Shown here: positions 26,850 through 47,055 of the stretch, one piece after another | Position numbering within the stretch: the first letter of the stretch is position 1 | Layout: each line of letters starts with the position of its first letter | NCBI GenBank assembly: GCA_035236585.1 | Contig: CP141139.1 | Location: 39,317,217 to 39,381,216, forward strand | Length of the DNA: 64,000 bases | From: Warburgia ugandensis | Taxonomy: Eukaryota; Streptophyta; Magnoliopsida; Canellales; Canellaceae | Direction of reading: 5' to 3' | Notes under the pieces: model-generated | Seen by the model: only the letters and a program-made list of their open reading frames with translations | Database searches by the model: none | Told to the model about the DNA's origin: nothing | Translations under genes and position numbers: made by a program

Positions 26850-29049
26850 GCCAATGTGACAACCCGGGTTTTTCAATACTTTTTTTTTTTTTTTAACTTT
26901 TCAAAAGGTGGGGCCCCAATTTTATAAAAACCAAAATAGAAAAAAATAATTTCAATCGAATTTCATTTTTTTGAAAAATCCCGAGGTCAACCATTGACGC
27001 AAACAAGATTTTCTTTTCTTTCTTCTTTTTCCAAGTAAACATGTTTAAAATAGAATTACTATTCTAGGACTCATCCAGTCATCAACCCCATTCCCATAAC
27101 AGTATAATCAAGTCCAATAACATATATATACATACACAATCCATGTGAAACTAGAACATACCTCTCAATGAGACTTCTCGACTACTATTCTTCTAACTCC
27201 TCATATGTCCTGCCTTTCTTTAATATCTGATGCATTGCAACAATAACGCAATACCTCAGCAAGCAATGCTTGGTAGGTATATAGACATTTAATGTATATC
27301 AATGAAACAAAATCGAATAATCATATTGATACAATGAGTAAAGCAATTTTCTACAAGAATATAATTATTTTAAGCAATGCTAATAAAATCTCAAAACATC
27401 ATATACGATAAAACATGCATTTCGTGGATTTAAAACATGATATGATCTCATGTAAATGAGCATACAATAATAACAGGGTACCCCCAAGGTACGTGGGTCC
27501 CACGAGTGTCCCATACACTAGCATCACAGATCATGAGTACTCATATCAAACCTCTAAGTGTCATCACAGCCAGGCATACCATCACATCTCCATACTCATC
27601 ATGCAAGCACATAGAATAAGAGTATGGATCATCATGCCGCAGTGGCAACCCTCCAAGGTCTCAACCACATCTGCTCCCCGTCGATACCATAACGGGAGAC
27701 TTAATGTTCATCCCCTTGGAAAAGCCCGGACCGGTAGTGTGGACTATCCATGTTACCAAACCACTACCAAAAGCCATCTGCAGGTAGGTGTCTATCATAT
27801 CATATCACAAATCTCGAAGGGTGGGTGGCTGGACCTCTCCCTCCTAACATGACATCCACTGGGTGAGAGCACCCATCATAAAACACAAAACAAGGAAATC
27901 ATGTATGTCAAAAAACCAAGAGCACTCGTGGCTCTCAATCCCTAAGGCATGCCCCTCATCCCGGGGTTAACCTCTAAAAGGACCAGCCACCAAGCCTTCA
28001 CTTTCCTTTCTCATGAAAACCCATCAGTTTCAGTGATGCAATAAGGAAGATCATTTCTATTTGTGCATAATTAGGTAATATCAATCTCATGAAACCATCG
28101 GTCATAAATACATTCAATACATAATTGAAATCAAAGAGCGATCATAGCATAAAACTCTAAATCTCACAACATCATCGACTAATAATAAGTGTATTTTAAA
28201 TCACAATCACTCATGATGCTATGATAATGCAAGGTTTTAAAATCAAAACAAAACATTAAATGTCATCACCTACCTCAATGTGAGATCACCCAACTCAAGC
28301 ATATAATCTTCTTAGCTTGTACGTTCAGATGTACCTGTTAGAACCACAATACTATTTTGTGTTATTTATTACATTATAATGAAATCTATGATGATCCAAC
28401 CATTGGATCATCCTCTAAGATCTCTAATTATGATTTGGTTCTTAATTTAGTCTCATCTCATGTCCATTTGTTCGTTTTTGTGTGTATCTAACGTTTATAC
28501 CTTAATCTGATGGTTAGATCATCCTCAGATCAATAATTTCCCAAGATCTAGTTCAGACCAATGGTCTAGATCAATTTCTAGAGTAGTCACGCTAATATAC
28601 CCCTTAGAACCATTATTTATTGTCATACTTTATCTCATTGTTCAAGTCTTGAGGCCTGATCACCCTTTGATCAGTCAGTTCTAAGTTATTAATTAATATT
28701 TTATAATTTAACTAATCTAAAAGTAGTCAAATGTAGGTTTTCAAGCCAAATCTAGGTCTGCGTCGTCAATACGATAGTAACGGATGTTTCCGCTTATGAT
28801 TTGAACCTCTGTAGCTCCTGAAATCAAGCTTTTTGTGAAAAGACTTCATAAATTAATTAGGCCTAGCAATTTGGGTTGGTGGGTCATGTTTGTGTCAACA
28901 CGAACATGACACATTAGAGTTATGGGTTTACATGAATAGGACCCACTTAATAATCATGTCAAGAATTCATGACCCAAACACAGCACAATTATTAAACAAG
29001 TCGACATGACACGACTCATGTAACATGATTAAGTAAATATAAAATAAAT

Positions 29050-29319
29050 AATATAGGACGGTTTCAGAAGAACCGTTCTATATTACTCTTGTAATATAAG
29101 ACAATTCTAGATGAACCATCTTATATTACATTTAGAGTTGTAATATAAGACAGTTCATCTTGAACTGTCCTATTACATTGTAATATAAGACGGTTCTAGA
29201 TGAACTATCCTATATTAGTCCTGTAATATAAGATGGTTCATCTGGAACCGTCTTATATTACATTTACAGTTGTAATATAAGACAGTTCCAGATGAACCGT
29301 CCTATATTACATTTACAGT
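29050..29319. repeat. Array of six 35-bp palindromes (left side of hAT element)
   Basis: Each unit follows AATATAAGACGGTTC, a 4-6 base spacer, then GAACCGTCYTATATT, so each can form a perfect or near-perfect hairpin. Units start near 29050, 29093, 29139, 29181, 29225 and 29274 and are separated by short 'ACATTTACAGTTGT'-type linkers. One or two units have the spacer in the opposite orientation. Confidence 0.85.
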
Positions 29320-29322
29320 TGT

Positions 29323-29574
29323 AATGGCAAAAGAGCTGCCGAAGAGGAGGAGCTGGGTCCTGGTGGGAAGAAAATCCGTCCAGGCATCACGACTGATATT
29401 ATCGCGGAGCTTACATATTGTAATCTTATGCTATAGGGACAGCGTAAAAAATGTCAGATCCCACTAACATTGGCATCTGTTGATGCATTGTAGAGTTATA
29501 CACAGCTTTCTAGTCATCCCCTCCACAAAACCAGTAAGCCAGGCATTTTATTTGCTAATATCCATCCTTCTAAG
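29323..29574 (+). pseudogene. Captured exon of the splicing factor PRP19 (MAC3-like)
   Basis: One frame of 84 codons reads NGKRAAEEEELGPGGKKIRP, then GITTDIIAEL, GQRKKCQIPLTLASVDAL, and SYTQLSSHPLHKTSKPGI, ending in HPSK. This matches the linker between the coiled coil and WD40 propeller of plant PRP19 (MAC3), the U-box E3 ligase of the spliceosomal NineTeen complex. Two in-frame TAG stops (29434-29436 and 29491-29493) interrupt it. The segment ends exactly at a splice-donor-like GTATGA (29575), so genomic DNA including the start of an intron was captured, not cDNA. The left edge abuts the hairpin array at about 29322. No U-box or WD40 parts are present, so it cannot make a functional protein. 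Confidence 0.85.
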
Positions 29575-30535
29575 GTATGAATACTAGAACTTATTGTTAT
29601 CATAATCCTTGAAGTGCATTTGAATGTATGCTTAAAGTGTTTTTAATCGTAGTGTGCAAATCATGCTCATGGAATTGTTACATCATGGATGTAGCTAGTT
29701 TCTCTCTCTATCTCTTCTTTATTTCTTTTTCTTTTTCTTTTTTAGTTTTTAGTTTTTAGTTTTTTTTTTTTGCCTTTTTGACATATCTTGCCGCTTTTTT
29801 ATCCCATTTATTTTTCACCCTATGTTTATTGTCCTTTTGATGTGAGAGGACTTCAACCTAGAATTCAATGTTTGTGAAACAACGGAGAGCTTTAAAGATG
29901 GGTTCTTACTTCCATGGTCATATCAGATTGAGGAGTGGTTCTAGGTAATATCAGGAAGCTAAAAAAGATCATATATCTTATAATGTTGTTATGTAGAGCA
30001 TGCATCTTAGTTTAGGAGGATGTGAGTAAAGTGATAAAAGGTATTGTGCAAGCATTCTAATTGAAACATCAAGAGTTCGTGAACTTCTCAAGTAGAATGA
30101 CACACTTAAGTAAACCTCATGGTGAATGTTGTGATACTAAAAGGTGGGGAGATTGTTGATCTAAGGCAACAACGTGTGGGAGATTTGGTCTACGGTTATC
30201 AAGTTCGATTAATATTGCTCTGTTGCTGATGGATCTGTAAACTAAATCATTGAAAATACAATTGGCAGAAGAAGAAGAAGAAGAAGATGGAATTGAATTT
30301 AGTGAAGGAAAGTGAATACAAGCTGAAGAGAATGAAAGAAAACAACATGATTCCCACTATAGGCCATTCGTACCTTCCTTGATGTATTCGCTTCTGCCCT
30401 CTTCACTTTCTACTCAAAAATTCCTGCTCCCTCTGTTTTCCTTACACTAAAAACATGATTCCCCTAACAAAATTCCTTCACCATCCACTCCTATCCTTAC
30501 ACCTGTCCCCCTTATATATCTGGATTTGATACTAA
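29575..30535 (+). other. Interior of hAT element: captured intron and unassigned DNA
   Basis: It begins with the donor-like GTATGAATAC following the PRP19 exon, then intron-like T-rich DNA (29700-29830). Later stretches (about 29840-30250), more GC-balanced, may be further captured host DNA, but I recognise no product. No second PRP19 exon was found. Confidence 0.5.
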
Positions 30536-30537
30536 AT

Positions 30538-30660
30538 TGTAATATAAGATGGTTCCAGATGAACCATCCTATATTACATTACAGTTGTAATATAAGACGG
30601 CTACAGATGAACCGTCCTATATTTTAATATAAGACGGTTTTTGAAGAACTATCCTATATT
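30538..30660. repeat. Array of three 35-bp palindromes (right side of hAT element)
   Basis: Three further copies of the AATATAAGAYGG...CCRTCCTATATT palindrome, mirroring the left array across the captured cargo. The symmetrical placement suggests they belong to the transposon and not to the cargo. Confidence 0.85.
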
Positions 30661-31853
30661 TTCAACCACATGTTAGATGGGTCAACGTGATGAATAAATA
30701 GGTCGCGTGTCAAACAGGTCGACATGATGGGTCACATTGATTGACCCGAAACACAACACGATTTTTGGCGTGTCATTTTCGGGTTGACTTGAAAATGACA
30801 CGAACACAATAAGACTCGACCCAAACCCGCTAAATTCGTGTCGGGTTTGGGTCGTGTTATCGTGTCATGTCATATTTTGCCACCCCAAAAATTAATATAT
30901 TAATTTATAGGGGTAGGTACGCATGCACCGACTTACACAGGCGGTGCGGTTTACACCGACTTACACCAGCGCACTGGGCGCTCAGGACACCTAGTGCGTT
31001 CTGGACATCCGGGACAACTCGCAAGAGTGTCCTGCACGCGCGTGCGATGGAGCACCCACATGCGCTGTCCCCGTTTGTGTGTCCCAGTGAGCGTCTTGGG
31101 CTTACTGTCTATCGGGGACGATGAACCCAAGCTGTCCACCTTGTTTTGGCTTGATCGGAGCCGCATAAGCTTTGATTTTTTATCTGTTTTCGCTGTTCCT
31201 AGGGTTTTTGGGTCTAAATATCACAATGAACGGCTTAGATTTCTCATTTTAAGTGTCCTTAACATGGCTTGAATCATGCTCCATAGTTTTGAATCCATAG
31301 GCCATCCAATGGCCATTCTGATCAGATCTAGCCCGGATCTGTGAGGGAAAAGTTGAAAAACAAAGTAAATAACAAGTTAAAATGTGTAACTTACCTGATT
31401 AGAGTCGAAGATGGGAGATCAGAGCCCTCTAGTGCGTGCAAACTTAACTTGTTTTCGCGGTGTGCACAGAGAAAAACAAGCGCTCTCCTCTGGTTGTTTG
31501 GCATGGGAATGGAAGGGGAAACTTGTATTTAATAGGCTAAGTCCCGATTTTTTTGAATGGAAGGTAGATCAGTGCCTTCCTCCATTAGAACTCTAATGGA
31601 AGTGGAAAAGGGGTGCATTATCAAAATGACTCCCTTTAATTAACGTCCCTGACAATTTACTAATTTACCCTTACACTTAAAATGGTCATAACTCACTCAT
31701 CTGAACTCCGTTTTTGACGGTTTTTATACCGTTCAATTCCTATCAACATGTACTTTTTTGTTTTTGAGTTTTGAGGACCAATTTCTGTACATAAAATTTT
31801 TATTTTAATTTATTACTAATTTATTATTTAAAATTTGAGGATATTATAGTCAA

Positions 31854-41896: not shown

Positions 41897-47055
<5,159 letters not shown>

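Follow-up and report, generated by a model that had tools for sequence, protein, structure and literature searches.

Whether a DNA transposon takes its pieces of host genes from genomic DNA or from RNA is the question raised by a 2031-bp element of Warburgia ugandensis. This element lies at 28858-30888 of the window (the whole stretch of 64,000 nucleotides analysed, C14:39317217-39381216) and it is a non-autonomous hAT element in which hairpin arrays stand on both sides of a fragment of the splicing gene PRP19. Here C2, C5, C9 and so on are contigs, L-numbers (L010, L018, L024, etc.) are genomic stretches that were read, and the genome searched comprised 1.12 Gb in 14 contigs. We propose that the element is a non-autonomous Pack-type hAT whose cargo would descend from a partly spliced PRP19 transcript, and we give a probability of around 0.9 to an RNA origin of the cargo followed by its transposition as part of the element.

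The initial annotation had described a captured PRP19 segment, and this identification held. The frame starting at 29323 reads NGKRAAEEEELGPGG..HPSK and runs for 84 codons up to GTATGA at 29575. In the donor version, the best match of these 84 residues in the PDB was PRP19 (E 1.2e-14), and the matches at E up to 1 comprised 4 distinct sequences, all of them PRP19. No Pfam family was matched by the 84 residues alone; together with the preceding donor exon they matched Pfam Prp19 (E 1.7e-6), in residues 1-24, which is the exon part that was not captured. A PRP19 gene of the same genome, that on contig C9, is the donor. A search with the Prp19 family model gave 4 exon matches, all at this locus and at a second PRP19 gene on C5 (6 of 6 candidates scored). 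The C5 gene was ruled out as donor, because the three copies found with this cargo agree with C9 against C5 at 102 sites and with C5 against C9 at only 8. Between the two PRP19 genes, the long terminal repeat (LTR) contained in the cargo was matched on C9 only.

The alignment with the donor shows how the cargo is composed. Against L010 (9 kb of C9), positions 477-600 and 595-1672 of the element matched two donor sequences separated by 181 bp, and a further match (1439-1676) fell at the second LTR. Aligned base by base, the donor has the exon A end AATGGCAAAAGAG, a 95-bp intron (GTTTTA..TTGCAG), exon B of 122 bp, a 187-bp intron (GTAGTA..TTGCCAG), exon C of 117 bp and then intron 3, which begins at GTATGA. 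In the cargo both short introns are missing exactly at the splice sites and the PRP19 frame runs through both joins; the same two introns are absent in all three chimeric copies. Therefore, the exact intron loss that characterizes a processed copy is seen for introns 1 and 2, whereas intron 3 is retained: the cargo keeps around 650 bp of it and around 300 bp of an antisense LTR. From junction to junction there is nothing but PRP19-locus sequence. The earlier statement that the match stops at GTATGA is thus right for the coding match, but the donor-derived sequence continues through intron and LTR to approximately 30533.

The C5 gene has both introns at the same places as the C9 gene. The introns are therefore older than the capture, so that the donor did not acquire them late, and an RNA intermediate is needed to explain why the cargo lacks them so precisely. 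Consequently, the initial view that the fragment was taken from genomic DNA has to be abandoned. The composition of the cargo is that of a partly spliced PRP19 transcript, which would be its source.

Regarding the retrotransposon in donor intron 3, its LTRs are at L010 2923-3336 and 7918-8285, with GTTGC on both outer sides (a 5-bp duplication), and its antisense orientation was judged by eye from a primer-binding-like stretch. LTRs related to those of this retrotransposon (L010 2923-8285) occur at many genomic sites. The next recognised exon of the C9 gene (..QDVIATGGVDSNAV..) is at about C9:58,008,205, so that intron 3 would be around 15 kb long if there is no exon between. The 16 kb read around the donor (L009 and L010) matched the element only in the cargo and did not match a cargo-free element at all. 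Within this stretch the donor gene is therefore not flanked by the same ends, and it lies outside sequence of the family, as in Pack-TYPE captures.

Two further elements with the same cargo and the same junctions were found, at C2:29.99 Mb and C14:8.14 Mb. The target duplications are AAATTAAT in the window, GACTCAGG on C2 and GTTCATGC at C14:8.14 Mb, each identical in 8 of 8 positions. Since each of the three chimeric loci has its own perfect 8-bp duplication, the element moved together with the cargo, which has been mobilised to at least three chromosomal sites. Both stops in the exons are private to the window copy and the C2 copy has no stop before GTATGA, so they were gained later, as initially supposed; the C14:8.14 Mb copy has a frameshift in the PRP19 exons. 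The Kimura two-parameter distances were 0.044-0.058 from the cargo to C9, 0.036-0.053 among the chimeras, 0.151 for the LTR pair of the donor and 0.196 for the C9 gene compared with the C5 gene. These distances fit an order of events in which gene duplication would have been followed by LTR insertion, capture and spread.

For the family as a whole, 54 places were read (the window, L011-L047 and L075-L090). A search with the whole element gave at least 152 matching pieces (best 40 of 4705 candidates), and a 40-base pattern of the right end occurred 158 times in the genome at up to 3 mismatches and 0 times when read backwards. The sample consists of the best matches to the window element plus 16 of the 158 right-end matches (9 perfect ones and 7 with a single mismatch). 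Sixteen places were incomplete (L025, L026, L027, L029, L030, L031, L037, L043, L047, L076-L079, L086, L088 and L089), leaving 38 complete copies. The duplication agreed at 7 or 8 of 8 positions in 31 of these (21 perfect) and at 5-7 of 8, in the best register, in the other 7. Foreign DNA between or within the arrays was found in 25 of the 38, which is not a family-wide rate because the sample is non-random and biased to window-like copies; the other 13 had no foreign stretch of 60 bp or more. Clustering of 33 foreign stretches, incomplete copies included, gave 13 groups, or 12 cargo types once the group of L088, whose left end was not found, was excluded (the clustering leaves aside an uncovered 120-bp piece at the end of L043).

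Pfam matches identify one of these types as a dUTPase piece (E 5.5e-26) and another as a RING-finger piece (E 7.1e-13), and a third is neurobeachin-like, with a DUF1088 match (E 5e-4) that falls short of the curated cut-off. By eye, and with no Pfam match, the L041 cargo comprises upstream sequence and the beginning of a glycine-rich protein, and the L024 cargo a coding exon with intron. Donors were searched for 5 of the 11 non-PRP19 types (L090, L024, L041, L085 and L032), and none of the five was split at introns as in PRP19: their leading matches were contiguous, although one of the six L041 matches covers bases 1-130 only. Two cargoes matched along their whole length and through introns: the neurobeachin-like one (L090) at C6:12.09 Mb with 96% identity (734 of 734 bases) and that of L024 at C2:78.87 Mb with 93% (540 of 540 bases). 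Within 1.5 kb on each side neither locus matched the cargo-free element. These two cargoes therefore derive from DNA. The matches of L041, L085 and L032 may be either donors or sister copies. Judged from the sequences, the two other cargoes with judgeable introns came from DNA and the PRP19 cargo from RNA.

At the left junction of the PRP19 cargo, the three copies read TTTACAGTTGTAAT|GGC, TTTACAATTGAAAT|GGC and TTTACAGTTGCAAT|GGC; on the right, GATACT|AAATTGTAATATAAG once and GATACT|GAGTTGTAATATAAG twice. The uninterrupted spacer TTTACA[AG]TTGTAATATAAG was present in 8 of 13 cargo-free copies. AGTTG(TAAT) stands on both sides of the cargo, where it overlaps donor letters in a repetitive array; the junctions are thus compatible with insertion and a candidate duplication of 4 to 9 bp, which we do not claim as a target-site duplication. 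Integration by an LTR integrase is not favoured, as by eye the insert is not TG..CA-ended in the 5-bp duplication reading. In the family, array sequence borders the foreign DNA in all 25 junction pairs printed. Of 24 junctions, 4 were located in the middle 21 of the 49 unit positions, where 10.3 would be expected (binomial 0.006), in a comparison with one copy per cargo type, some short array alignments and a central zone set after seeing the junctions; the avoidance of central positions is no more than a lead. Apart from PRP19, a 278-bp cargo at L019:612-889 and L075:390-667 has by eye an apparent 5-bp duplication, TTACA, within the array, and is a second candidate for a cargo that was inserted instead of patched in.

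The course that we propose would begin with the insertion of the LTR retrotransposon, in antisense, into the long third intron of the C9 gene, as seen there today. A PRP19 transcript, nascent or prematurely ended, would then have had its two short upstream introns spliced and would have ended around 970 nt into intron 3, inside the LTR and before the distal splice acceptor of the approximately 15-kb intron. Its cDNA, truncated at the 5'-end and presumably made by a reverse transcriptase, may have been joined into the spacer between hairpin units, where the junctions are found. A hAT transposase acting in trans would have moved the enlarged element to the three or more sites mentioned, and the copies have since decayed. 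The entry itself may have been a direct insertion, the patching of a break in the array or the capture of a retropseudogene that was later lost. We consider it rather probable that the cDNA entered the element directly and not by way of a separate pseudogene.

Several observations weigh against this course. There is no poly(A) tract at the 3'-end of the cargo in any of the three copies, which end in ..GGATTTGATACT followed by the array. The truncated transcript and the entry of the cDNA left no direct trace, and the overlap of donor with array letters in a repetitive array makes the 4-9 bp junction duplication ambiguous. DNA was the source of two other cargoes of the family; therefore the RNA capture is one event and not a demonstrated habit. 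Furthermore, capture from a retropseudogene that was lost or unscored would look alike, given that the cargo-only genome search (51 matches) covers the best 40 of 54 candidates. Within these, no free-standing retrocopy was found, and apart from the three chimeras and both PRP19 genes the matches listed cover the LTR part only.

Ordinary nesting deserves to be taken seriously, although we would not bet on it. Here LINE-type machinery would have put a 5'-truncated, tailless retrocopy into the hAT by chance, the array having no role; retroposition is a general process and the candidate AGTTG(TAAT) duplication at both junctions speaks for it, but the poly(A) is missing and the frequency of foreign DNA at the arrays in our non-random sample suggests a capture-prone array. 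A course in two steps, with the transcript first giving rise to a processed pseudogene at another site and the hAT taking up an inner segment of this copy as DNA before the pseudogene was lost, seems to us unlikely. It would account for the missing poly(A) and the 5' truncation, and it agrees with the two cargoes that kept their introns. Nevertheless, it requires an extra event and a pseudogene that did not appear among the candidates scored, and the cargo holds only PRP19-locus sequence between its junctions. DNA capture straight from the PRP19 gene, despite the intron 3 and LTR sequence in the cargo and the mode of the two other cargoes with judgeable introns, is ruled out for practical purposes by two introns that are lost exactly at GT..AG in three copies and present in both PRP19 genes. 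Returning to the RNA origin, a wider reading in which breaks in the hairpin arrays of this family are patched with whichever nucleic acid is available, even nascent RNA or cDNA from genes that are not linked, appears doubtful to us.

The features of the element are collected in Table 1. Its ends and its duplications agree with the initial description as a hAT-type element. The terminal inverted repeats in family copies are TAGGCCTGGCAA and TTGCCACCCCTA, and such short repeats are typical of hATs. Folded as DNA, the left array reached -71.1 kcal/mol against -19.3 +/- 3.3 for 200 shuffles, none of them as low (z -15.6), and therefore the hairpin units are real. The PRP19 piece is single, in one orientation and between the arrays, that is, outside the inverted repeats, so that a hairpin transcript would not by itself turn it double-stranded. 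No transposase reading was found in the window element, and no genome-wide search for an autonomous partner was made. The longest complete copy (L018, 4941 bp) had 4 open reading frames of at least 80 aa (93-109 aa) within a 5539-bp stretch, called with bacterial start rules, with introns unmodelled and without scanning the frames against families.

Table 1. Features of the chimeric hAT element, in window coordinates.
Feature	Position	Strand	Basis
Left 8-bp target-site duplication, AAATTAAT	28850..28857	none	identical to 30889-30896
Left terminal and subterminal hAT region, starts TAGGCCTAGCAA	28858..29048	+	also present in family copies that have an 8-bp duplication
Left array of near-palindromic ~40-bp units, TGTAATATAAGACGGTTCCAGATGAACCGTCCTATATTACA	29049..29322	+	repeat analysis, folding
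AGTTGTAAT at left cargo junction; candidate 4-9 bp insertion-point duplication	29317..29325	+	overlaps donor-derived AAT, length ambiguous
PRP19 exon A, last 13 nt (AATGGCAAAAGAG), abutting exon B without intron 1 (95 bp in the donor)	29323..29335	+	donor alignment
PRP19 exon B, abutting exon C without intron 2 (187 bp in the donor); stop TAG 29434	29336..29457	+	donor alignment
PRP19 exon C, ends at GTATGA; stop TAG 29491	29458..29574	+	donor alignment
5' part of PRP19 intron 3, retained (664 bp in donor ahead of LTR)	29575..30226	+	donor alignment
Part of LTR of the retrotransposon antisense in donor intron 3; cargo ends inside LTR	30227..30533	+	donor alignment
AATTGTAAT at right cargo junction (AGTTGTAAT in the other two copies)	30535..30543	+	copy comparison
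Right hairpin array	30536..30662	+	repeat analysis
Right subterminal and terminal region, ends TTTTGCCACCCCAA	30663..30888	+	family comparison
Right 8-bp target-site duplication, AAATTAAT	30889..30896	none	sequence comparison

Some of the other cargoes are themselves multicopy. The most frequent one in the sample is the dUTPase piece, which runs antisense to the element and was found in 8 copies (L018, L076-L079, L086, L087 and L089), 6 of them incomplete; by eye it apparently keeps an intron. The neurobeachin/BEACH-like piece (L090:782-1515), with two introns kept (by eye), was found at six places, namely L090 itself, C6:12.09, C8:16.18, C3:60.1, C7:51.4 and C9:6.56 Mb, and adjoins right-end matches of the family at three of them (L090, C7 and C9). 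The RING-finger piece (L085:492-844) was found at ten places with 88-100% identity and adjoins listed right ends at two, L085 (C3:67.44) and C4:23.31 Mb. The cargo-bearing copies L082 and L083 (C13:26.98 and 27.00 Mb) are separated by 24 kb and have almost identical flanks, TGTGAGTA/TGTGAGTG; they were counted as two, and probably are one insertion in a local genomic duplication. Elsewhere in the window, a 704-aa open frame at 44941-47055 (-), possibly an exon of a protein, overlaps 219-bp tandem repeats at 45430-46082. No known RNA family was found in the window at gathering score.

With its exon-exon junctions, the cargo shows that gene sequence can reach a DNA transposon by way of an RNA intermediate. 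The family makes the question testable, since its cargoes, set between hairpin arrays, are of 12 types and at least three donor genes can be read in the same genome. If the doubtful array-patching reading were true, a family of DNA transposons would repeatedly trap gene pieces of genomic as well as of RNA origin, and elements with terminal inverted repeats would have a route to genes far from their own site.

The initial remark that gene capture is less often described for hATs is a fair one, but hATs with host genic cargo are already known. Hatvine-6, a grapevine hAT family (PMC2528002), has common ends and a highly variable inner sequence that matches genic and non-genic host DNA. It resembles our case in carrying host exons and introns between constant ends; however, its cargo is genomic with introns and its elements share transposase sequence, whereas in the window element no transposase was seen, arrays flank the cargo and the cargo is intron-free at two splice junctions. 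The Pack-TYPE hATs (Pack-hAT) of maize and rice (PMC8903248) have, as here, 8-bp duplications, host-gene pieces and several copies. Their proposed acquisition is the re-mobilisation of neighbouring insertions, from genomic DNA, and in the main text of that paper 'intron', 'introns', 'retro', 'cDNA' and 'mRNA' each occur 0 times.

The unusual part is therefore the RNA-derived cargo, of which we found no report for a plant hAT or another element with terminal inverted repeats in titles and abstract starts of the openly licensed PMC literature. MER20, which is involved in the nearest case, is a hAT. In the work on Pack-TIRs and Ssk-FB4 (PMC8277862), the human retrogene ARF6 is reported to lie in MER20, and the authors allow for recurrent retroposition; we regard this as the nearest published case. 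The same paper proposes the FoSTeST model, in which repetitive inverted repeats stall forks and template switching captures a gene, and there too the chimera afterwards transposes to several sites. Its pipeline, as described there, discards intronless captures from multi-exon parents, so that such a survey would miss cases of this kind. Unlike those cases, the PRP19 cargo is only partly spliced. Finally, it resembles processed pseudogenes in its exact intron loss and its 5' truncation and differs from them in having no poly(A), in keeping one intron and in being found here only inside a DNA transposon that spread it.

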